Source: Nitrospirota bacterium (GTDB taxonomy: Bacteria > Nitrospirota > Thermodesulfovibrionia > Thermodesulfovibrionales > UBA1546). Taken from it: 44,421 nucleotides of DNA. Under the pieces are notes generated by a model, which had not been told where the DNA came from, searched no databases, and saw nothing but the letters and a program-made list of their open reading frames with translations. Every line of letters begins with the position of its first letter. The stretch's first letter is position 1. Positions 13,275-38,389 of the stretch are shown piece after piece. The stretch is from contig JACPZK010000002.1 of NCBI GenBank assembly GCA_016195565.1, positions 1-44,421 of the forward strand. Reading direction: 5' to 3'. The position numbers and the translations under genes were made by a program.

Positions 13275-15773
13275 TCAACTCCTGAATCTGTTAATCTCGC
13301 CATCTAAAGTTCCTACCGAGTCTCCAAGTAAAGAAGATTCCTTTGTCATTTCTTTGGCAAGCCCGAGGTTATCCTTTGCAATGTCTGTTATAGCCTCTAT
13401 GCGTTTGGTTATGGCTTTGCTTCCTGCCTTCATGTCCTCCATTGCTTTTTTTATCCGGCTTACCCGTGAGAGTATGTCCTCTCCTGACCTTGTAATAAGG
13501 TCTGCGCCCTTAGACTGCTCTGAGGTGGAATTCTTAAGCCCTTGCGCAATCTCTTTTGCTTTTTCTATGCCTGCGAGTATCATCTCACTGCCGGAGCGCT
13601 GCTGTTCCGATGCATTTAGTATCTCTTCCATTCTTGAGGATATACCTTCAATTGATGAATTTATTTCCTTTATTGCCTTTGCCTGTTCCGTGGTCGCTTT
13701 TTCTATAAAGGCAGTTTGAGAGGCTGATGCTGTGGAAGTTTCAAGGATGCCGTTAAATACAACACCGACATCTGTTATTAATTCCAGCCCCTGCTCTATC
13801 AGGGTCACAGTCTTTTTCTCTGCAGTTGCAACATTGTTTATAGACCCTTTAACCTCTTCTATTATAGCTGTGATTTCCTTCGTGTTCTTTGCAGTGCGCT
13901 CTGCAAGCCTTCCTATCTCGTCAGCAACAACGCCAAAGCCCTTGCCGTGCTCTCCTGCCTGAGCGGACAGGATTGCTGCATTAAGGGCCAGCAGCTTTGT
14001 CTCATCAGCAACCTCGGCTATAACCTGCGCAATTTCATCTATCTTTTCAGATGATTTTCTCATGCCTTTAACAATCTTGGCTGTGTCATCAGCGGAATCC
14101 TTTATCTCGTTTATGCTTTTTACAGACTCATGGATGGAGCTTATCCCCTTCTCGCGTATGGTTGAAGTAACTTCTTTCGCAAGAAGTGAAGACTGTTTCG
14201 CGGAGTCCCTGACCTCATTAACGCTTGCAGTAATCTGTGTGGCAGATACCAGCGTATTGCTGACTGATTTTCTTGAATGCTCTATGTTTTCATTTATCGC
14301 CTTGATTGAGGCGAAACTCTCCTCTATGGAAGATGAAGTCTCATCTATGAATGAGGCAAAGGATGAAGTGTTTTCAGCCACTTCTTTTACGGACGCCTTC
14401 ATCTCAAGGAGTGTTGTTAATGTTCCTTCTGCGGATTCATGCAGATGTTTAACAGCCTCGGTAATCTCTCCGGTGGTAGTGTTTATCTCAAGGACAGAGG
14501 TGGTTATCTCGGCTGAGTCAACAACCTGCTTTTCTGACCCCTCCGTTAATTTGTTCATTCCTGTAACAAAGCCGCTTACGGAGAGCTTCACTTTTTTCAT
14601 AGAATCCCTGACATGATGTATTAACTCTACAAGCCCTTTCCGCATGGCCTCTATGGAGCCTACAAGTTGGCCCATCTCGTCCTTTGACGGTGTTGTGACT
14701 ATACGGGTCAGGTCTCCCTTGGAAATCTCGGTCGTAACTGAAAGGACAGCCTCTATAGGCTTTGTAATATTGCGAATGACAACATACGCAAGGATAACTG
14801 CAGCCAATATGGCTATAATACTCAGCGCTATATAAAACACAAACGTTTTTTGAGCCTGTGCGTGTATCTCTTCAGCTTTTTTTTCCAAATCGATGTTAAG
14901 CTTATCCTCAACCTCCCTTAAGAGCTTTATCTGGCCTGTCTTCATCTTAAACCAGTATGCAGGATCTATCCCGAACTTGCCTGCGCTTGCCTTTTCAAAG
15001 GCAAGGCCCCTCATCCTTTCCACCTCATCCACAAACTGCCCCTGAAGTTTACTTTTATAAAAATCCCTCTGGTCAGACGCGGCAAGGGATAAAAAGACAT
15101 TAAGGTATATCTCCTGCGCTGTTACAACAGAGGTAAACCTTTTAAACATCCCCGGCCCGAAGTTGTCCATTGCAAATGTATTGCTGAGTGTGGCCCGCTC
15201 AATCCCGCTATTTTCCTTGTCCCAGAGAAAGTTTACATAGGCTGTAGCCATTGTCGACAGCTCGGCATTCCCGCTTATCTTCGTCATAAAAGAGACGGCT
15301 TCCAGAAACTGGCTAATCATGTTTGTATAATAGCCTATTATCTCACCCGCCCCTGCTGTCATGCTGCTTGCCGAACTTCTTTTGGTTTTTATCTCATCCA
15401 GACTGCTGATTGCGTTGTCAACCGCTTTTTTAAACTCTGGACCGAACCTCTCTGCCTTGAATCCATGCAGAAATGTCTGGAGTTCAGATATTTTTTTATC
15501 TGTCTCAAAACGTTGTTCAGAGAGTTCAGTAACAAATGCAGCCCCTTTACTGCCTATAAATAGAGCTGTGGATCCCCTCTCGCGCTGCAATTCATGCACA
15601 AGGTTGCTTATCTTGACTGAAAGGCGGGTAAGATTTTTCAGGTCATTCATTGCATCTGCCTGCACTGTCTTCTCCCACATCCCGTTGAGAGAGAAATAGA
15701 GTAAACATCCTATCGGAAGGATAAGCATCAGGATAAGCTTGTTTCTTATTTTCAGTCTATTTATGAAATTCAT
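13275..15773 (-). CDS. methyl-accepting receptor with NIT (nitrate/nitrite-sensing) domain
   Basis: 832 residues. The layout is TM1 (about 13-30), a periplasmic NIT domain beginning [15 protein letters not shown] (about 55-300), TM2 (about 313-335), HAMP (about 336-390) and a long signalling coiled coil. The hairpin tip is [20 protein letters not shown] then [19 protein letters not shown] domains in known receptors respond to nitrate or nitrite. No che genes are nearby, so it could feed chemotaxis or another output. It is divergent from the molybdoenzyme operon, whose substrate might be what it senses; that is inference from position. Confidence 0.9.
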
Positions 15774-16516: not shown

Positions 16517-19018
16517 ATGAGTGATAACAGAGTTATAACAGAAGAAGAAAAAGGCATTTTTGAAAAGACTACAGGTAAGGAGTTTACAAGGCGGTCATTT
16601 CTCAAATGGGCATCGGCTTTGGCAGGAGCGGCTGTTGCCAGCGGCATTATGTGGGATGACAAGCTCGGAATCTTTCGGGAGGCCGGTGCACAGGAGAAGC
16701 ACCTGAAAGAGGGCGAATGGATATACAGTAACTGCAATATGTGCGGAGGCCAGTCCGGAATTAAGGTCAAGGTTGTCAATGGCAGGGCTGTAAAGATTGA
16801 AGGGATTGCAAACCCGAATAACATTGCGAATATATCATCCAACTATGAAAAGGCAGTAGGCGAACTCGGAGCTTTATACAAAGACAAGGATGCCGCAGGC
16901 AGGCTTTGTTCAAAGGGTAACTCAGGCTTGAGGTCGCTGTACGATCCCGACAGGCTGAAAACACCTATGGTAAGAGTCGGTGAAAGAGGAAGCGGCAAGT
17001 GGAAGGCAATTTCATGGGATGAAGCTGTCAATAAGGTTGCAGAGAACCTGCAAAAGATTAAGGAAAAACATGGGGCAGAGAGTCTTGCGTGGTTCAGCGA
17101 AGACCACTCTTTCACCCATATACAGCAGGATTTCTGCAAGATTTACGGGACTCCGAACTATCACAATCATGCGAATCTTTGTGACGTTTCGAGGAAAGCG
17201 TCTTTCAAGCTGTTGATGGGTAATGAGCGTCCGTTGGCAGACTTTGAAGATACATCTTACGCCCTCATATTCGGATGGAACCCGCTCGGCGCCACGAAAT
17301 GGATACTCCTGCCGGGTATATGGAACAGGGGAAGGGCAAAAGGCGCCAAAATGGTACTGGTTGACCCTGTATGCAGCCAGACGGCTGCAAAGGCTGACGA
17401 ATGGGTGCCTATAAGGCCCGGTACAGACGGAGCTATGGCGCTTGCCATCGGCCATGTCCTGATTAAGAAGAATCTCATTAATAAGGCATTTATTGATGAG
17501 TGGTGCGTTGGCTTTGACGAATATGCAAAGTATGTTGCCGATAAGACACCTGAATGGGCTGAAAAGATAACCAGTGTGCCGGCAAGCACTATTGAGAAGA
17601 TAGCAACAGAGATTGGTGAGACTGCAAAGGCCGGGAAATCTGTGTGTATTGATGTATGGAGCGGCCCCGGGCATCATACTAATGCTACCATTGGAGGCTA
17701 TGCCATCGCCATTCTTCCGGCGCTAATAGGAATGATCGATAAAAAGGGAACAATGATGGAGCCGGACAAGAAGGGAAGCAAGCACCACCACATAGATATG
17801 AACCTTCCCTCGCTGAAAAAGCCGAGAGTGGATGGTAAAGGGACCAAATACATCCTTGGTCACGGCTCAGGTATTTATGTTGAGACAAGGGATGTAGTTT
17901 TAAACGGTAAAGAATCAACGACAGGCTCCGGTGTGCCTAAGGCAGGCGTATTTGTGTTCCAGAATTTTATAATGTCTGTTCCGGGCACAAGCAAGAATGT
18001 AGACTTCTTCAATAAGCTTGAATATGTTGTAGTTGTTGACACGCATATGAGCGAAACTGCAGAGCTTGCCGATATTGTAATCCCCGGGTCGAACTACCTT
18101 GAGAGGTATGATTTTAATTCTCACTGGGTAACATGGCCGGTTATGGGTTTGAGGAAGCCTGTCGTGAAGTCTGTCATCAACGGCATGACCGAGGTTGAAT
18201 TTGTCATGGCTCTTATGAAAAAGATGGGCATGAAGGATGATCATGGGCACAGCCCTGCCAGCTTTACATATGAAGCCTTGTACAAAGACGAATACGATGC
18301 TTGCGACTTCCCGAAAAAGACCAATATGGATTGGGAAGCGTACAAGAAAGTTTCTTTGGGGATGTTCGGAAAGACCGAATACGAGAAGTTTAAGAAGGTA
18401 GTCGCAATACCTGAAGGCGGCAGCGTTGACGAGAAAACTGGTTTGGTAAAAGGTAAGGACGGCAAATCTGTTGGCGTAAAGATCGGCGATAAAATTATGA
18501 AGGGATTTAATACGCCCACAAGGAAACTCGAGCTGACTTCAACATTCATGAAGAACAATAAATACAGCGGACTTCCTGAATACAGCGACCCTGAGGATAA
18601 GCCGACAAAGGAGTTCCCTCTGCATCTTATCAATTTCAAGCAGAACGAGCATACACACTCCAGAACATTCAACAACGATTATCTGATGGAGATGAAACCG
18701 GATAACCCCATAATCATTAATTCAGCAACTGCTGCAAAGCTTGGACTCAAGGATGGGGATGCAGTCTGGATAGAGTCAGCCTTTGCTAAGGCCAAGGGAA
18801 CAGTTCAGGCAACAGAGAGGATACATCCGGAGGTTGTTGCTCTTCAGCACGGATACGGCCACTGGGCTATGGGGAAAATTGCTAAAGGGTCTTTAAATAA
18901 GACTAACAAGTGGTCTCCTGCCGGGACTGCCGACGGACAGTTCCTGCCGGGCAAGGCGGAAAAGTTCTCCGGCATGGCAGTTCACAAAGAAATCGGCGTG
19001 AAGATAATAAAGGCATAG
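16517..19018 (+). CDS. Tat-exported molybdopterin oxidoreductase catalytic subunit (PsrA/PhsA/ArrA/TtrA-like)
   Basis: 833 residues with Tat signal TRRSFLKWASALAGAA (24-39). The Fe-S region is CNMCGGQS (Cys73, Cys76, Ser80) with Cys131 in LCSKG. The usual third Cys is Ser here (TCC codon at 16754-16756). The Mo ligand is probably Cys222 in NHANLCDVSRKA, as in the Cys-ligated NapA/PsrA/ArrA branch. Later cofactor segments include RGAKGAKMVLVDP-like and the C-terminal HTHSRTFNNDYL and GLKDGDAVWIES. It would reduce or oxidise a periplasmic substrate such as a sulfur, selenium, arsenic or nitrogen oxyanion. The substrate cannot be decided. A strong AAAGGAGGG site lies before the start. Confidence 0.9.
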   Translation: MSDNRVITEEEKGIFEKTTGKEFTRRSFLKWASALAGAAVASGIMWDDKLGIFREAGAQEKHLKEGEWIYSNCNMCGGQSGIKVKVVNGRAVKIEGIANPNNIANISSNYEKAVGELGALYKDKDAAGRLCSKGNSGLRSLYDPDRLKTPMVRVGERGSGKWKAISWDEAVNKVAENLQKIKEKHGAESLAWFSEDHSFTHIQQDFCKIYGTPNYHNHANLCDVSRKASFKLLMGNERPLADFEDTSYALIFGWNPLGATKWILLPGIWNRGRAKGAKMVLVDPVCSQTAAKADEWVPIRPGTDGAMALAIGHVLIKKNLINKAFIDEWCVGFDEYAKYVADKTPEWAEKITSVPASTIEKIATEIGETAKAGKSVCIDVWSGPGHHTNATIGGYAIAILPALIGMIDKKGTMMEPDKKGSKHHHIDMNLPSLKKPRVDGKGTKYILGHGSGIYVETRDVVLNGKESTTGSGVPKAGVFVFQNFIMSVPGTSKNVDFFNKLEYVVVVDTHMSETAELADIVIPGSNYLERYDFNSHWVTWPVMGLRKPVVKSVINGMTEVEFVMALMKKMGMKDDHGHSPASFTYEALYKDEYDACDFPKKTNMDWEAYKKVSLGMFGKTEYEKFKKVVAIPEGGSVDEKTGLVKGKDGKSVGVKIGDKIMKGFNTPTRKLELTSTFMKNNKYSGLPEYSDPEDKPTKEFPLHLINFKQNEHTHSRTFNNDYLMEMKPDNPIIINSATAAKLGLKDGDAVWIESAFAKAKGTVQATERIHPEVVALQHGYGHWAMGKIAKGSLNKTNKWSPAGTADGQFLPGKAEKFSGMAVHKEIGVKIIKA

Positions 19019-19030
19019 GAGGTGATATAA

Positions 19031-19606
19031 ATGGCTAAGAATTCTAATCAGATAGGCTGGTATTACAATGAGAATAACTGTATTGCATGCAGGGCCTGTG
19101 AGGCCGGCTGCAAGCAGGAATTCGATCTGCCCATAGGGGTAAGGCGCAGAAGGGTCATAATCAAGGAGGAAGGGAAATATCCGAATGTAAAGGTCAGATA
19201 TATCTCTTCAGCATGTAACCATTGCGAGGAGCCTGCATGCTTGAAGGCATGTCCTGTTGGAGCGTACACAAAAGAGTCTGAGTTTGGCGCTGTACTGCAC
19301 AATCAGGGGAAATGTATCGGCTGCAAGAAATGCATGGCTGCATGTCCTTATGGAGCGCCTCAGTTTGATGAGAAAAAGAAAAAGGTTGATAAATGCAGTT
19401 TGTGCTATCACAGGCTTAAAGAAGGTCTTCCTCCTGCGTGCGTGAGGACGTGCCCCGGTTATGCCCTGTGGCACGGTAAGATGTCAGACATTGAATCAGG
19501 GAAGGCATGTCCGGATGTCTACAAGAGACCTCTTAAGGACAAATTGCCGGGGTTTGCTGACCCTAAATTGACAATACCGTCAGTTAAGTTCTCTGAAAAC
19601 AAGTAA
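19031..19606 (+). CDS. four-cluster ferredoxin-like electron-transfer subunit (DmsB/NrfC/PhsB type)
   Basis: 191 residues with 16 Cys in four clusters: CIACRACEAGC, CNHCEEPACLKAC, CIGCKKCMAAC and CSLC...ACVRTC. This is the standard beta subunit, with four [4Fe-4S] clusters, of complex iron-sulfur molybdoenzymes. It has no signal peptide, so it would be exported with the Tat-carrying catalytic subunit. AGGAGGTGAT, a full anti-16S match, precedes the ATG. It lies 12 bp after the catalytic gene. It would pass electrons between the Mo subunit and the trihaem cytochrome or another partner. Confidence 0.95.
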   Translation: MAKNSNQIGWYYNENNCIACRACEAGCKQEFDLPIGVRRRRVIIKEEGKYPNVKVRYISSACNHCEEPACLKACPVGAYTKESEFGAVLHNQGKCIGCKKCMAACPYGAPQFDEKKKKVDKCSLCYHRLKEGLPPACVRTCPGYALWHGKMSDIESGKACPDVYKRPLKDKLPGFADPKLTIPSVKFSENK

Positions 19607-19615
19607 AGGGAGTTT

Positions 19616-19645
19616 ATGGTGGAGCGGGAAACCCCGCTCCACCAT
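19616..19645. repeat. perfect 13-bp inverted repeat with AAAC loop
   Basis: ATGGTGGAGCGGG (19616-19628) and CCCGCTCCACCAT (19633-19645) are exact complements. The hairpin is strong and starts 10 bases after the ferredoxin stop. It is not followed by a T run. It may protect or terminate the structural-gene transcript so that the chaperone is made at a lower level. The in-frame ATG at 19616 is inside the stem and is probably not the chaperone start. Confidence 0.8.
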
Positions 19646-19651
19646 CTAAAA

Positions 19652-20272
19652 ATGATGAATATCATGACGCTGGATTTATCAAGAACATTGAGTTTATTGG
19701 GCAGCATGTATTTATGCAAGCCATCTAAAGAGGCACTGGAGAACTGGAAGAAATTGCTCTCTGAAGATACTCCCTGTTTTTTGGCGGAATTTAAAAATGC
19801 CGTTAATGAAATAGACCTTCGCTCAAAAAAAGAGCTTGAAGATTTGCTCTGGGAATACACGAGGCTTTTTATCGGTCCGTATAAGCTTCCCTGCCCGCCG
19901 TGGGAGTCAGTCTATACATCCCCTAAAAAGCTGATGATGCAGGACGCACATGATGATGTCCGCGCATTTTATGCTGAAATGGGACTTGCTGTTAATGACC
20001 AGAATGTAATGTGTGACCATATTGGCGCTGAACTAAATTTTTTAGCTGTTTTGTATGAAAATATGGATGATTATCCTGAAAAAATATCTTATTATGAAGA
20101 TTTAGCAAAACGCTTTCTTGTTGAGCATATTTTGAAGTGGGCGCCGCAATTTGCGGAGGACATGGAAAAGGCGGCTGATACGGCATTCTACAAGATGCTG
20201 GCATCGGCAACGAAACGTATGATCCAAGATTTAACAAAAGATTTAGAACTTACTGCAGAAAGCAAGAATTAA
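19652..20272 (+). CDS. TorD/DmsD-family molybdoenzyme chaperone
   Basis: About 206 residues from the ATG at 19652; the ORF is open from 19616, but that ATG lies in a hairpin. The protein is all-helical in character. It has the family segment EYTRLFIGPYKLPCPPWESVY and later HIGAELNFLAVLYENM and HILKWAPQFAEDME. These chaperones bind the Tat signal and assist cofactor loading of the catalytic subunit. It lies directly downstream of the ferredoxin subunit, so the partner is clear. No good ribosome binding site is visible. Confidence 0.88.
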   Translation: MMNIMTLDLSRTLSLLGSMYLCKPSKEALENWKKLLSEDTPCFLAEFKNAVNEIDLRSKKELEDLLWEYTRLFIGPYKLPCPPWESVYTSPKKLMMQDAHDDVRAFYAEMGLAVNDQNVMCDHIGAELNFLAVLYENMDDYPEKISYYEDLAKRFLVEHILKWAPQFAEDMEKAADTAFYKMLASATKRMIQDLTKDLELTAESKN

Positions 20273-20358
20273 CTAAACCACATGCCAATGTCATTTTTCA
20301 GTAAGACGGACATAGTATTGTGGGCTTTCTATAGAGCAGAGCGGATAAAATCCACAAA

Positions 20359-20994
20359 ATGAAGCCTGTGAAAAAAGCAAACATAGACAGCGGTTGTTCT
20401 GATTTCGACAAATTGCTTGATGAATCCGTCAAAATCCACGGACATCTCTGTCCGGGACAGGTGCTTGGAGTGAAGATGTCCATGCTCGGACTCAGAGAGG
20501 TAGGGATTGAAGACCCGAAGGGCAAAGACAGGAAAAGCCTTATCGTGTTTGTTGAGATGGACAGATGCGCTACTGATGCAGTTCAGTCAGTGACAGGGTG
20601 CAGCCTCGGGCACAGGTCAATGAAATTTATGGACTACGGGAAAATGGCTGCGACATTCCTGAATCTCAAGACAGGCAAGGCAGTGAGAGTTGTGGCAAAA
20701 GAGGAAGCAAGGGAAAAGGCAAAAGAGTATTTCCCTGACATACAGGATAAATACAAGGCTCAGCTTGAGGCCTACAAGATAATGTCTGATAAGGAACTTT
20801 TCGAAACGATGAGCGTCAAGGTTGAGATAAAGCCTGAGGACCTGCCGGGCAGGCCGCTGAAAAGGATTCCATGTGATATGTGCGGAGAATATGTTCAGGA
20901 TATGAGGGAGATGCATAAAAGCGGGAAGGTATTATGCAGGCCGTGCGCAGGAGGAGGGTATTACGCAATTGAAGACAAGCCTCATGGTAAATAA
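20359..20994 (+). CDS. FmdE-family protein with C-terminal zinc finger
   Basis: 211 residues. The FmdE core is shown by KIHGHLCPGQVLGVKM (about 26-41), DRCATDAVQSVTGCSLGHRSM and MDYGKMAATFLN. A C-terminal CDMCG...VLCRPC module (about 174-197) resembles a zinc ribbon. FmdE-type genes accompany molybdenum or tungsten enzymes such as formylmethanofuran dehydrogenase, with an unclear role. Position between the TorD-like and ModE genes supports a part in Mo-cofactor handling here. The preceding 86-bp gap has no obvious promoter. Confidence 0.85.
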   Translation: MKPVKKANIDSGCSDFDKLLDESVKIHGHLCPGQVLGVKMSMLGLREVGIEDPKGKDRKSLIVFVEMDRCATDAVQSVTGCSLGHRSMKFMDYGKMAATFLNLKTGKAVRVVAKEEAREKAKEYFPDIQDKYKAQLEAYKIMSDKELFETMSVKVEIKPEDLPGRPLKRIPCDMCGEYVQDMREMHKSGKVLCRPCAGGGYYAIEDKPHGK

Positions 20995-31852: not shown

Positions 31853-31914
31853 GTCATTGCGAGCGAAGCAATCCCTTTCTTGAGATTGCTTCGGGCTATC
31901 GCCCTCGCAATGAC
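31853..31914. repeat. GTCATTGCGAG-type palindromic repeat after the phosphofructokinase gene
   Basis: GTCATTGCGAGCGAAGCAATC and GATTGCTTCGGGCTATCGCCCTCGCAATGAC-like form a long near-perfect palindrome. It could act as a transcript end. Confidence 0.85.
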
Positions 31915-31972: not shown

Positions 31973-32977
31973 TTGTTTGTGGCAACCTATCCTGAATGTT
32001 CGATAGAAATAGAAGAGGAAAAGGCTTCTATCCTCATAGCGGATGACCTCGAAATTCACTTAGAACTGATGGAGGCTATCTTTGAGAGAGAAGGCTGCCA
32101 GGTCCTGACTGCGCATAATGCCGATGAAGCGCTCCGTCTTCTTGAAAAATCCTCTCCTGATCTGGCTATCCTGGATGTGATGATGCCGGGCATGAATGGC
32201 TATGAACTTTGCAAGAGGCTGAAAGAGAAAAGCGGGGCCAGATTCTTTCCTGTAATCCTTGTAACCTCACTGTCAGAATTAGAAGACAAGATAGCCGGCA
32301 TTGAAGCCGGCGCTGATGACTTTATAACTAAACCTTTTAAATCTATTGAACTTACTACAAAAGTCCGTTCACTTCTAAAATTAAAAAAGCTTCAGGAAGA
32401 GCTGGACCATTCAGAGAGTGTAATCCTTACGCTGGCGGTAGCGTTGGAGTCAAAAGACCCTTATACAAAAGGGCATTCAGAAAGGGTAGCAAATCTTTCA
32501 GCAGAATTTGCCGCCTTTATCGGGTTTCCGGAAAAAGAACAGGCCCTTATCAGGAAAGCAGGGATTATTCATGATATCGGCAAGATAGGGATAGGAGACT
32601 ATATACTCCGTAAAAGCGGTATTCTCACAAAAGAAGAGGTAATATCCATCGAGCAGCACACTGTTATAGGAGAAAAGATATGCAGGCCGCTTCATTCGCT
32701 CAGCGTAATACTGCCGGCAATAAGACATCATCATGAGAGATGGGACGGCGAGGGATTCCCCGACGGGCTTAAAGGCGAGCAGATACCGGTTATGGCAAGG
32801 ATTCTTTCAATCGCGGATACTTTTGACGCAATGGTATCAGAAAGGCCGTATAGAAGGCCTATTTCTATAGAAAAGGCAACTAAGAAAATGGAAGAAGAAA
32901 AAAACTTCGGCCAGTGGGATTCCGTACTCCTTGAGAAGTTTGTAGAGATGATGAGAGGGAAAGAAGGCAAGGGATGA
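31973..32977 (+). CDS. response regulator with HD-GYP c-di-GMP phosphodiesterase domain
   Basis: 334 residues from a TTG start with AGGTGG upstream. The receiver domain (about 18-135) has phosphoacceptor Asp68 (LAILDVMMPGMNG) and Lys120 (TKPF). The HD-GYP domain (about 150-330) has the HD pair (200-201, IIHDIGKIG) and HHERWDGEGFPDGLKG (253-268). The GYP tyrosine is replaced by Phe (GFP), a conservative change. It is RpfG-like and expected to degrade c-di-GMP when phosphorylated. It overlaps the hybrid kinase gene by 4 bp, so that kinase is its likely partner. Confidence 0.9.
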   Translation: MFVATYPECSIEIEEEKASILIADDLEIHLELMEAIFEREGCQVLTAHNADEALRLLEKSSPDLAILDVMMPGMNGYELCKRLKEKSGARFFPVILVTSLSELEDKIAGIEAGADDFITKPFKSIELTTKVRSLLKLKKLQEELDHSESVILTLAVALESKDPYTKGHSERVANLSAEFAAFIGFPEKEQALIRKAGIIHDIGKIGIGDYILRKSGILTKEEVISIEQHTVIGEKICRPLHSLSVILPAIRHHHERWDGEGFPDGLKGEQIPVMARILSIADTFDAMVSERPYRRPISIEKATKKMEEEKNFGQWDSVLLEKFVEMMRGKEGKG

Positions 32978-35900
32978 TTAAAGTAGCCATAGTAGGAGCA
33001 GGAAAAGGCGGAAGCTATCTTCTTGAAGTATTTCATATAAACGGAGAGGTAAAGGTAGTCGGCATAACTGATAAAGACAATAAAGCCCCCGGGCTTAACC
33101 TTGCAAAAGAATGGGGTGTTTTTATTGCCAGTGATGTGAAGGATCTCTTCAGTCAGAGCCCTGAGATTGTAATAAATTCAACCGGCGAGCCAAAGGTCAG
33201 CGAGTTCATTAAACAGGCCGCTCCGTATCCTGTAGAGATTATTGAAGGCACAAGCGCAAAATTCCTCTGGGACCTTGTAAGGAGGCAGCAGCTTGCAAAG
33301 AACGATATGGGTGTTCTCTACCAGAATGGAATCAGCATTACGAAAGCCAGAAATCTGAAAGAGGTTTTGAATAAAGTATTAGAGTCTGCCATGAAACTCA
33401 CAGAAGCGCCTGCCGGCAGCATAGCCCTCATTGACGGTGATGAGATGGTTATGGCTGCGCATAGGGGATTGAGCCGTGAGTTCTTTAAAGAGCAGAGATG
33501 GAAGCCGAGAAAGGATGGCCTGACATGCCGCATACTCAGGGATAAGGAACCGGTTGAGTTTCAGGACACTGAGAAAGAACCGCTATTTAAGGGCACAAAG
33601 ATATTACAGGGAGGAATAAAGTCACTGCTTGCATCCCCGCTTCTTCTTGACGAAGGCATTGTCGGGATTCTCTATCTGGATGATTTCAAACCAAGGGAGT
33701 TTACAGAAAGGCATAAAAATCTCATAAAGATTTTCTCTTCTTTTGCTGCGCAGGCAATAGAGAAATTCAAACTTCTCCATGAGCTTGAGGAATCACTTGG
33801 TTATCTTCAGGGAGTGCTCGATGATTCACAGGATATGATTGCCACGACTGACAACCGGGGCAGGATTGTTAAATTCTCAAAAGGCGGGGGAAGGATTCTG
33901 GGCTACAGGGTGGATGAGGTTATAGGAAAGAACGCAGCCGGGTTTTATGCGGATAAGGAAGAAAGGGCAAAAATTCTTGTGGCGCTTAAAGAAGAAGGGG
34001 CGGTATATAATTACGAAACAAAACTTCTAAAAAAAGACGGCTCTCAGGTGGATATAAGCCTTACTATCTCCCGTCTCAGGGATAAAGCCGGCAATATCAT
34101 AGGCACAGTCGGCGTCAGCAAGGACATTACCGAAGAAAAGCAGCTAAGAGAAAAACTTAAAGATAAAAATAAAGAGCTTGAAGAACTCACGCACGGCCTT
34201 GAGGAAAAGGTGCTTGAAAGGACGAGGGAGCTTGAGAAAATAAACAGGGAGCTCAGAAGGGCCAACGAAATAAAAGGGCGGTTTATAGCAAATATGAGCC
34301 ATGAGCTGAGGACCCCGCTTCACTCTATAGTCGGATTCTCGGAAGTCCTCCTTGACAGGACCTTCGGCGATATAAATGAAAAGCAGCAAAGGCACATAAC
34401 TAATATACTCACATCAGGCAAACACCTCCTGCATCTCGTAAACAACATATTAGACCTCGCAAAGATAGAGGCAGGCAGAATAGAGCTGTCACAGGAGACG
34501 TGCTCTTTAAAAGCCGTAACAGATGAGGTGCTCATGGTCATCAGACATCTCGCAGATAAAAAACTTATAGAATTAAAAACAGATATAAGCCCTGAGTTTC
34601 CCAATTTTACTGCGGATAAGGTCAAGTTCAAGCAGATTCTCTACAATCTTTTATCCAATGCAATTAAATTTACGCCGGAATCCGGCAAGGTAGGAATAAA
34701 GGCAGAAAAATTAATAGGCAGAGACTTAGTCCCCTGGGCTATTAAGGGGCAGGAGTTTATGAAACTCTCGGTCTGGGATACCGGCGTCGGCATCAGAGCC
34801 GAAGACAAAGAAAGGGTGTTTGATGAATTTGAACAGCTTGACCCGTCAAGGTCAACCGAGGGTACAGGGCTTGGCTTATCTCTGACAAAAAGACTTGTAG
34901 ACCTCCACGGCGGCATCATAGATGTAGAGAGCGCCTATGGCGTAGGGAGTGTATTTAATGTATACCTGCCGGTAGTTGTGCCTGAAATAGTTGTAGAGGA
35001 GAAGCCGGTGATACCAGAAGCCGTCCCTGCATTTTCCTGGGCAGCAGAAGATGCCCCGTTGATCCTTGTAGTGGAGGATGACCTGCCCACATCAGAGCTA
35101 TTAACTATCCATCTTACTCAGGCAGGATACAGGGTGGCCCATGCTTATGATGGATTAGAGGCGATAAACAAGGCATGGGAGCTTCAGCCTTTTGCCATAA
35201 TCCTTGATATAATGCTGCCCAAGAAAAACGGATGGGAGGTTCTCCAGCACCTTAAATCAGACTCTGAGACAAGCGATATTCCGGTGATTATCCATTCAAT
35301 AATAGACAATAAAGAACTCGGGTTTGCCCTTGGAGCCGTAGATTACATTGTAAAGCCCTTGGACAAGACGAATATTCTGAGCAGGCTTGAACAAATCTCT
35401 TTAGCAACAAAAAAGAGGCGCGATCCTGTCACCATCCTTGCTGTTACGAATGATGTGGATATTCAAAAGCATTTCCATGACATCCTTGGAGGCGAAGGAT
35501 TTCTTGTGCACTCGGCAGCTAATTCTCAGGAGGGGATTAATCTCGCGCTGGCAACCAATCCCAATTTAGCAATTATAGACCTGAATATTCCCGAAGGCGG
35601 GTTTAATCTTATCAAGAGTTTTAAGGAAAATCCTGCCACAAAAATGATACCTGTATTTGCCCTTACTTCCGGCGCGCTTTCAGAAAATGAAAGCCTTTCT
35701 ATGACAGGACAGATAGAAAAAATATTGAGAAAAGATGCGCTTAGTTCAAAGGAGCTTATAACACATCTGAGAGATCTCGAAGTCTTGCATCCCCAAAGGG
35801 CCGGGCTTATTGATGAGATAACGGGAATATTCAATCACAGATATTTCCAGATAAGGCTGGCGCAGGAAACCAGCAGGGCAAGAAGGTATAATCTTCCTTT

Positions 35901-36294
35901 TGTAATGGCTATATTCGGGGTTGACTACTTTACCCATTATACGAACAGACACGGAGAATACTACGGGAATCTTGCATTGCGGAAGATTGCGGAACTTTTG
36001 AGAAAGGATATCAGGGGCTCCGATGTTGCTGTAAGGTATGGCAGCGATACCTTTGCCCTGATACTTACTAACACATATCTTTCCTCCGGAGTTGCTTTGT
36101 GCAAGAGGTTCCTCTCAACAATTCATGATTATCCATTCCTTAAAGAGGAAAACCAGCCGAATGGCAGGCTTTCCGCAAGCATAGGCATTTTGGAATTCAG
36201 CGGGCAGTCCGCTGAGGAATTACTCCGGTCTGCGGAGAAGGCGCTTTTGCTTGCTGTTGAGAAAGGCAGAAACAGGGTAGAGGCAATCTCCTGA
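32974..36294 (+). CDS. hybrid histidine kinase with N-terminal Rossmann domain and degenerate GGDEF
   Basis: 1106 residues and no membrane segment. An N-terminal NAD(P)-type Rossmann fold (IKVAIVGAGKGGSYL, about 1-105) is followed by GAF (about 120-270), PAS (about 275-390) and a coiled coil. HisKA has His443 (MSHELRTP), and the ATPase domain has NAIKFTP, DTGVGI and GTGLGLSL. A receiver (phosphoacceptor Asp745) follows. A second, weaker receiver keeps Asp869 but lost the acidic pair. The final GGDEF-like domain has GSDTF (1023-1027) instead of GGEEF, so it is not expected to be a cyclase. Overlaps the HD-GYP gene. Confidence 0.92.
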   Translation: MIKVAIVGAGKGGSYLLEVFHINGEVKVVGITDKDNKAPGLNLAKEWGVFIASDVKDLFSQSPEIVINSTGEPKVSEFIKQAAPYPVEIIEGTSAKFLWDLVRRQQLAKNDMGVLYQNGISITKARNLKEVLNKVLESAMKLTEAPAGSIALIDGDEMVMAAHRGLSREFFKEQRWKPRKDGLTCRILRDKEPVEFQDTEKEPLFKGTKILQGGIKSLLASPLLLDEGIVGILYLDDFKPREFTERHKNLIKIFSSFAAQAIEKFKLLHELEESLGYLQGVLDDSQDMIATTDNRGRIVKFSKGGGRILGYRVDEVIGKNAAGFYADKEERAKILVALKEEGAVYNYETKLLKKDGSQVDISLTISRLRDKAGNIIGTVGVSKDITEEKQLREKLKDKNKELEELTHGLEEKVLERTRELEKINRELRRANEIKGRFIANMSHELRTPLHSIVGFSEVLLDRTFGDINEKQQRHITNILTSGKHLLHLVNNILDLAKIEAGRIELSQETCSLKAVTDEVLMVIRHLADKKLIELKTDISPEFPNFTADKVKFKQILYNLLSNAIKFTPESGKVGIKAEKLIGRDLVPWAIKGQEFMKLSVWDTGVGIRAEDKERVFDEFEQLDPSRSTEGTGLGLSLTKRLVDLHGGIIDVESAYGVGSVFNVYLPVVVPEIVVEEKPVIPEAVPAFSWAAEDAPLILVVEDDLPTSELLTIHLTQAGYRVAHAYDGLEAINKAWELQPFAIILDIMLPKKNGWEVLQHLKSDSETSDIPVIIHSIIDNKELGFALGAVDYIVKPLDKTNILSRLEQISLATKKRRDPVTILAVTNDVDIQKHFHDILGGEGFLVHSAANSQEGINLALATNPNLAIIDLNIPEGGFNLIKSFKENPATKMIPVFALTSGALSENESLSMTGQIEKILRKDALSSKELITHLRDLEVLHPQRAGLIDEITGIFNHRYFQIRLAQETSRARRYNLPFVMAIFGVDYFTHYTNRHGEYYGNLALRKIAELLRKDIRGSDVAVRYGSDTFALILTNTYLSSGVALCKRFLSTIHDYPFLKEENQPNGRLSASIGILEFSGQSAEELLRSAEKALLLAVEKGRNRVEAIS

Positions 36295-36437: not shown

Positions 36438-37136
36438 TTACAAAAATAGTTTAAATAGCAGAAGCGTCACGACTGCTCCCATAAGGCTTCCGAGAGATAC
36501 CTCCCACCAGTTATGAACCTTGGCTGTAACCCTGCTCTGAGCGATTATTACAGCGAGGATAAAAGACAGCAGGGACGCGGTAAAGCTCGATGTTATGAAG
36601 GTTATTGCTATCCAGGCCGAAAATGCAAGCGCGGCATGGCCGCTCGGCATTCCGCCTCTCAATGGCCGCCCTTTTCCGGAATACGCCTTTGTTATTACAA
36701 CCAGGATAAGGACTATTATCAATGAGATAATAGCAATCTCTTCTTTTGAGTGTTTTGCGATGTAGAGCCCTTGATGGAAAATATCACGGATGTAAGGGGA
36801 TAAGACTATGTATCCGACAACTGCGGCTCCGAATGCAGTTACGAACACCGCGCCTGCAGCGATATCTTTTACTATGCGTGCCTTTTCGGTGTGGTTAGGG
36901 GATATGATGTCAACTATCGCCTCTATCGCTGTATTAAACATCTCTGATAGAAGTACTGCTATCACAGAGAGCGAGATTAACATAAATTCTATTCGTGAAA
37001 CGCCAAGGATATAACTTACAAGAAGAACTGTGGCAGCGCTGTAGAAGTGATACCTCAGATGCCGCTGCGTTCTGGCAGCATGAAGAATCCCTTCTATTGC
37101 AAAGTCCGCGCTCTTTATCAATTTCCTGAGAGGCAT
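36438..37136 (-). CDS. fused DgkA-like kinase and PAP2-like phosphatase
   Basis: 232 residues. The N-terminal half is a DgkA/undecaprenol kinase domain with three membrane helices; ARTQRHLRYHF, EMFNTAIEAIVD (65-76) and KDIAAGAVFV are the conserved parts. The C-terminal half is a PAP2 domain: KAYSGKGRP (150-158), PSGH (164-167) and SRVTAKVHNWWE (201-212) are the three phosphatase motifs, with Glu instead of Asp at the last position. It would act on lipid carriers in the inner membrane. The two activities oppose each other chemically, so one may be regulatory. It is convergent with the hybrid kinase gene. Confidence 0.88.
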   Translation of the reverse strand: MPLRKLIKSADFAIEGILHAARTQRHLRYHFYSAATVLLVSYILGVSRIEFMLISLSVIAVLLSEMFNTAIEAIVDIISPNHTEKARIVKDIAAGAVFVTAFGAAVVGYIVLSPYIRDIFHQGLYIAKHSKEEIAIISLIIVLILVVITKAYSGKGRPLRGGMPSGHAALAFSAWIAITFITSSFTASLLSFILAVIIAQSRVTAKVHNWWEVSLGSLMGAVVTLLLFKLFL

Positions 37137-38257: not shown

Positions 38258-38389
38258 GTCATTGCGAGGATTCCTCGTCTGTCATTGCGAGCGAAGCGAA
38301 GCAATCTCTTATGACAGACTCGGAACAGGCTCCGCAATCTCGCCTTTTGAGATAAGATTGCCACGAACCCTTCGGGTTCTCGCAATGAC
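38258..38389. repeat. compound GTCATTGCGAG-type repeat
   Basis: Two left ends (GTCATTGCGAGGATTCCTCG and GTCATTGCGAGCGAAGCGAA) and one right end (GGGTTCTCGCAATGAC). It includes internal hairpins (CTTATGACAGACTC, CCTTCGGG). A nested copy seems to have been inserted. An ORF at 38214-38438 is made mostly of this repeat. Confidence 0.75.

Follow-up and report, generated by a model that had tools for sequence, protein, structure and literature searches.

In a 44,421-nucleotide stretch of DNA from a Nitrospirota bacterium (Thermodesulfovibrionales, UBA1546; assembly GCA_016195565.1, contig JACPZK010000002.1, positions 1 to 44,421), hereafter the window, two genes on the forward strand encode a response regulator with an HD-GYP output domain and a large hybrid histidine kinase whose N-terminal domain resembles the cofactor domain of dehydrogenases. 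The phosphodiesterase gene lies upstream of the kinase gene, and the two share 4 bp (ATGA); their domains are listed in Table 1. An initial annotation, made from the letters and open reading frames (ORFs) of the DNA, had reported this overlap as well as GAF, PAS and two receiver domains in the kinase, and both statements agree with the ORF coordinates and the Pfam assignments.

Table 1. Positions in the window of the two overlapping genes and of the domains and motifs assigned to them (aa, amino acids).
Feature	Positions	Strand	Basis
Response regulator with putative HD-GYP phosphodiesterase output for cyclic diguanylate (c-di-GMP)	31973..32977	+	ORF, 334 aa, TTG start; Pfam
REC domain of response regulator	32030..32368	+	Pfam PF00072, residues 20-132
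HD-GYP domain	32441..32920	+	Pfam HD_5/HD, PF13487 residues 157-316; motifs HDIGK and HHERWDGEGFPDGL
Hybrid histidine kinase	32974..36294	+	ORF, 1106 aa, ATG start; Pfam
N-terminal Rossmann domain (predicted sensor), residues 1-115	32974..33318	+	Pfam, profile search, predicted structure, alignments
GAF domain, residues 125-263	33346..33762	+	Pfam
PAS domain, residues 287-387	33832..34134	+	Pfam
HisKA dimerisation/phosphoacceptor domain (MSHELRTP), residues 434-501	34273..34476	+	Pfam; His in 48/48 homologues
HATPase_c catalytic domain, residues 548-667	34615..34974	+	Pfam
Receiver 1 of kinase	35062..35388	+	Pfam Response_reg; Asp in 48/48 homologues
Receiver 2 of kinase	35440..35778	+	Pfam Response_reg; Asp in 42/48 homologues
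Degenerate GGDEF domain, residues 946-1101	35809..36276	+	Pfam, alignment
I-site RGSD (RxxD), five residues upstream of A-site motif	36013..36024	+	R and D invariant, 48/48
Degenerate A-site GSDTF (consensus GG[DE]EF)	36040..36054	+	alignment of 48 kinases

The domain order of the kinase, according to Pfam, is Rossmann-GAF-PAS-HisKA-HATPase-REC-REC-GGDEF, and the HisKA histidine, the HATPase domain and the receiver aspartates of a hybrid histidine kinase are all present. The Pfam scan of the kinase revealed neither a membrane or periplasmic sensor domain nor an HPt domain that could relay phosphate from the internal receivers, and the protein is a soluble, cytoplasmic hybrid kinase. Its partner is a putative c-di-GMP phosphodiesterase with intact motifs: the phosphoacceptor Asp and the Lys of the receiver, the HD motif and HHExxDGxGxP are kept in the orthologues, with the GYP of the motif reading GFP here and in most of them. 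The host genome, which measures 2.3 Mb and is 99% complete, encodes a single strong copy of the Rossmann domain.

The N-terminal domain matched the GFO_IDH_MocA NAD-binding Rossmann family (PF01408; NAD, nicotinamide adenine dinucleotide) at kinase residues 2-70 with 24.0 bits, exactly the family cut-off, and carries a GAGKGG motif at residues 8-13. Its sequence profile, compared with solved structures, found mostly NAD(P)-dependent dehydrogenases, with Gfo/Idh/MocA enzymes and DapB at E about 1e-4. An AlphaFold2 model, built from a 60-sequence alignment, reached a predicted local distance difference score (pLDDT) of 92.5 and a predicted template modelling score (pTM) of 0.85. The top Foldseek matches of this model were acylating acetaldehyde dehydrogenases and Gfo/Idh/MocA enzymes, both NAD(P)-dependent (E 3e-5), and its structural Z scores were 12.1 against the acylating acetaldehyde dehydrogenase 4lrs, 11.9 against 1nvm and 11.3 against NAD-bound GenD2. 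These results uphold the N-terminal NAD(P)-type Rossmann domain with GAGKGG that had been annotated initially, and on the strength of the model it is a genuine dehydrogenase-type domain. A chance or mis-translated reading was ruled out: the frame and the domain are kept in many genomes, at 23-95% identity, and in many relatives the N-termini of ORFs of about 1000 aa align with the whole of the domain.

The model covers the N-terminal part and the extreme C-terminal end of enzymes roughly 300 residues long; in 1nvm, for example, 104 of its residues are aligned across the chain range 4-305. The substrate domain that lies between the aligned ends of the dehydrogenases appears to be missing from the kinase, in which the exit helix (residues 92-114) is predicted to lead into the GAF domain. 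Indeed, neither Pfam nor the structural alignment located a substrate or catalytic domain after the cofactor domain, GAF beginning at residue 125. The domain therefore shares with the cofactor domains of Gfo/Idh/MocA enzymes and acylating acetaldehyde dehydrogenases the Rossmann fold, a glycine-rich loop and an acidic residue following strand 2, but differs from them in its fusion to signalling modules in place of a catalytic partner. Because the substrate domain is absent, we read it as a cofactor-binding sensor that is probably not an enzyme, and a fusion of kinase and active dehydrogenase was ruled out on the same evidence.

As to what is bound, NAD(H) is favoured because the fold comes with the GAGKGG loop and strand 2 ends in an acidic residue, D33, and we judge this ligand reasonably probable from sequence and model. 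An acidic residue ending strand 2 is typical of NAD(H) binding, and Asp or Glu occupies position 33 in 46/47 Rossmann-bearing hybrid kinases. G8 and A44 are found in all 47 of them and N68 in 46, and the G-x-G-x-x-G loop, under a strict rule, is present in 31.

A search with the HD-GYP protein alone in 61 genomes yielded 26 strong orthologues (E 3e-112 or better). In 23 of them a Rossmann kinase follows directly after the HD-GYP gene, and the two genes are usually separated by -8 to +1 bp; in the other three the contig ends (G004), the kinase has no Rossmann domain (G056) or no kinase adjoins the orthologue (G051). Planctomycetota (L121) and Deltaproteobacteria (L153) have the same gene pair, and among the operon neighbours no third gene was conserved beyond the family. 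Phosphotransfer from the kinase to the neighbouring receiver-HD-GYP protein is very probable. The initial proposal that a small molecule bound by the Rossmann domain controls c-di-GMP breakdown is thus partly supported, by an input domain of dinucleotide type and by the adjacency in 23 of 26 orthologues.

At the other end of the kinase, the GGDEF domain had been called dead, and its A-site motif indeed reads GSDTF. It is preceded by RGSD, so that the A-site is lost and the RxxD of the I-site kept, the pattern that marks PopA and SgmT. Among 48 aligned kinases the A-site GG[DE]EF is intact in one (L027), and at its second Gly and Glu positions the commonest residue accounts for just 33% of rows, while RxxD is present in all 48, R1014 and D1017 being among the 15 invariant columns of 166 in the GGDEF alignment. 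Binding of c-di-GMP at this I-site is, in our estimate, a good deal more probable than its absence. Because the I-site is retained in every kinase, the alignment suggests that the domain is probably no relic and that c-di-GMP is a likely second input of the kinase; a feedback role, drawn by analogy, is a guess.

We also followed the Rossmann domain beyond this operon. It was matched in 32 of 61 sampled genomes of the window's order, a few of which have only stand-alone or weak forms, and in 121 of 198 sampled genomes of the phylum, where many Nitrospiraceae-type genomes have two copies. In samples taken round other matches, with the centre genome counted in each, the domain was matched in 47/149 genomes for the phylum of Pelotomaculum, 51/148 for the phylum to which Deltaproteobacteria bacterium GWF2_42_12 belongs and 3/99 for that of the Planctomycetota match. 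A contig scan found the domain in Nitrospirota (including Candidatus Nitrospira defluvii and Manganitrophus), Deltaproteobacteria, Planctomycetota, Acidobacteriota, Bacillota, Kiritimatiellota, Verrucomicrobiota, Elusimicrobiota, Spirochaetota, Fidelibacterota (Neomarinimicrobiota) and Bacteroidota; single contigs of metagenome-assembled genomes may be misbinned. The kinase with its Rossmann head had at first been regarded as unusual, a view that does not hold: the operon is wide in one order and the domain, judging by these matches, is present in at least ten phyla. Common occurrence, in many genomes, was therefore found, and a known function was not.

The outputs attached to the domain are varied. 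They comprise NarL-type kinases with a response regulator next to them, HisKA kinases, sigma-54 AAA+ activators, GAF-GGDEF cyclases with an intact GGEEF, GGDEF-EAL proteins, the present hybrid kinases and the signalling domains of methyl-accepting chemotaxis proteins (MCPs). In the MCP fusions of Clostridia, which are 264-287 aa long, the Rossmann domain is the sole input and nothing else is able to sense. Parsimony counts 13 switches of output on the domain tree, which has 114 columns only and many unresolved forks and serves only to show repeated output changes. From its sequence context the domain is a mobile input domain shared among signalling outputs, and a sensor role is indicated because the same domain heads MCPs as their only input as well as kinases, activators and cyclases. 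Residues of its pocket are kept in many phyla. Since the scan itself used the patterns GKGG and xTG, their conservation in alignment A5 is in part a product of the search, and the argument rests on D33, A38, G40 and A44 and on relatives recovered without recourse to the two patterns.

Further arrangements of the domain were observed. It makes up the whole of stand-alone proteins of about 130-160 aa (L050-L054 and other ORFs of 129-162 aa), and two tandem matches occur in a kinase of 771 aa (L170) and in several Deltaproteobacterial ORFs (e.g. G488:C20, G384:C1, G422:C4). Nitrospira-type genomes (L067, L068) commonly encode two Rossmann-headed proteins; the pair in G139 consists of a NarL-type kinase, next to which a response regulator is encoded, and a HisKA-type kinase.

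Our preferred interpretation, to which we give a probability of about 0.6, is a two-gene cytoplasmic two-component system that lowers c-di-GMP and receives NAD(H) or redox input through the Rossmann domain. The domain would bind NAD(H) and report the redox (NADH/NAD+) or energy state, with GAF and PAS supplying further intracellular inputs. The signal would pass along the exit helix to GAF/PAS and set autophosphorylation of the HisKA histidine, and the phosphate would then go to the receiver-HD-GYP protein and alter its activity as a c-di-GMP phosphodiesterase. The two receivers within the kinase may be a phosphate sink or modulators, and the catalytically dead GGDEF domain would bind c-di-GMP at its retained I-site, providing feedback or localisation at the C-terminus of the kinase.

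Several observations weigh against this interpretation, and they bear on different parts of it. The first concerns the ligand, as the G-x-G-x-x-G loop is degenerate (e.g. GGNIGAS) in 16/47 Rossmann-bearing hybrid kinases, in which the operon is mostly kept. Dinucleotide binding therefore cannot be essential in all family members; the sequences make it likely in the window's copy and perhaps not universal, and the part of the family with a degenerate loop may have another ligand or none. A sister clade of hybrid kinases (L034-L046, L082) carries such loops (GGNIGAS, GGNIAGS), most of its members having the same operon, and a change of ligand is possible there. The Rossmann domain could accordingly be a sensor for another metabolite, such as another nucleotide, an acyl-coenzyme A- or aldehyde-related compound or an amino-acid intermediate, which the operon would link to c-di-GMP in place of redox state. 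This would fit the persistence of N68, G8 and A44 beside the degenerate loop, the weak similarity scattered over cofactor families including CoA_binding and DapB_N, and the lack of a ligand-naming metabolic neighbour gene conserved beyond the family. We nevertheless consider it unlikely, given that the nearest folds are NAD(P)-dependent dehydrogenases and that both GAGKGG and the acidic residue closing strand 2 are preserved in the window's copy.

The second observation is that one relative (G056/L087) keeps the operon and has lost the Rossmann domain. Together with the 16 degenerate loops, this could mean that the domain is a ligand-free structural or dimerisation module and that GAF and PAS are the real inputs. 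Such a role is hard to reconcile with the direct fusion to an MCP signalling domain in Clostridia, where no other sensor is possible, with the existence of the domain as proteins of about 130 aa on its own, and with the pocket residues conserved over many phyla, and we hold it to be quite improbable. The third concerns the target: kinases of the same type without an HD-GYP neighbour precede a stand-alone receiver (L033, L055, L056, L080), and others likewise lack the neighbour (L028, L030, L031). These cases, and the two receivers within the kinase, would be expected if it acted on its own receivers or on another regulator, the HD-GYP neighbour being linked for other reasons. The close adjacency in 23/26 orthologues and the lack of an HPt domain to relay phosphate from the internal receivers make this the least probable of the alternatives, with only a slim chance of being correct.

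The last points concern the GGDEF domain. RxxD is a common motif, present also in 15/15 other, active GGDEF proteins of the fetched loci, and therefore only its retention after loss of the A-site is informative. In SgmT of Myxococcus xanthus, a GAF hybrid kinase with a degenerate GGDEF domain, binding of c-di-GMP at the I-site was shown, but the GGDEF domain and its I-site were dispensable for activity in vivo, and the binding served localisation (PMC3509222). The kinase of the window is similar to SgmT in being a cytoplasmic hybrid kinase with GAF input, a receiver and a C-terminal GGDEF domain with degenerate A-site and intact RxxD. It differs in that SgmT lacks the Rossmann and PAS domains, has one receiver and is partnered by the DNA-binding DigR, whereas the partner here is an HD-GYP phosphodiesterase.

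Two other known systems invite comparison. Like the redox repressor Rex, which it matches structurally at Z 9.4-9.6, the present protein appears to use a Rossmann domain for sensing and not for catalysis. Rex binds DNA through a winged helix and regulates promoters directly, whereas the outputs driven by the present domain are kinases, cyclases, MCPs and sigma-54 activators. The profile search of solved structures gave no specific sequence link to Rex (E 0.06), nor was an N-terminal winged-helix DNA-binding domain found in the kinase, whose Pfam scan returned no helix-turn-helix and which begins with the Rossmann domain. With RpfG-like response regulators the HD-GYP protein has in common the combination of REC and HD-GYP phosphodiesterase and the pairing with the gene of a hybrid kinase. 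Kinases of the RpfC type are membrane sensors, in contrast to the kinase of the window, which has a Rossmann input and a degenerate GGDEF domain and in which Pfam detects no membrane or periplasmic sensor.

Other features of the window were also recorded. Directly upstream of the operon, a phosphofructokinase gene (PF00365; 30609-31823, +), with this linkage only in the genus and family, encodes GGDD at the characteristic site, which we take to be a frequent mark of pyrophosphate-dependent enzymes. Between this gene and the operon lies the intergenic element GTCATTGCGAGCGAAGCAATC (31853-31873), within a longer, seemingly self-complementary stretch; a second copy with 3 mismatches is located at 38281-38301 (0.01 expected by chance). 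A gene at 36438-37136 (-) encodes a fusion of prokaryotic diacylglycerol kinase and PAP2 phosphatase (232 aa) that is kept in close relatives. Further away, an MCP gene with a NIT nitrate/nitrite-sensing domain (13275-15773, -) adjoins a cluster (16517-20994, +) encoding a molybdopterin oxidoreductase and an FmdE-type protein.

Each module of the system is known already; what is apparently unnamed and undescribed is the Rossmann domain in its role as an input common to several kinds of signalling protein. No dedicated Pfam, NCBIfam or PDB family matched it beyond generic NAD-binding models, and no description was found in open-access full texts, a search that most subscription papers and preprints fall outside; the main text of a 2022 census of sensory receptors for c-di-GMP is likewise silent on a Rossmann domain (PMC8846402). 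This silence of the literature is weak evidence of novelty. Our broadest proposal, to which we lend slightly less than even credence, is that the domain derived from dehydrogenases through loss of the substrate domain and is an unrecognised shared intracellular NAD(H) redox sensor across at least ten phyla, Nitrospira included, that serves histidine kinases, diguanylate cyclases, sigma-54 activators and chemoreceptors. Together with the HD-GYP enzyme and a dead GGDEF domain that binds c-di-GMP, it would form in the window's order a loop setting c-di-GMP according to redox state.

To our knowledge, few soluble sensors inform two-component, c-di-GMP and chemotaxis networks of the redox or energy state within the cell; those known are heme or flavin PAS domains, protoglobin and hemerythrin. 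The MCP fusions of about 285 aa separate the sensory role of the Rossmann domain from all other inputs. If the proposal is true, the domain would give a general answer to how redox input is obtained in many uncultured and anaerobic groups and in nitrite-oxidising Nitrospira, and it may let bacteria couple their behaviour to internal redox state.

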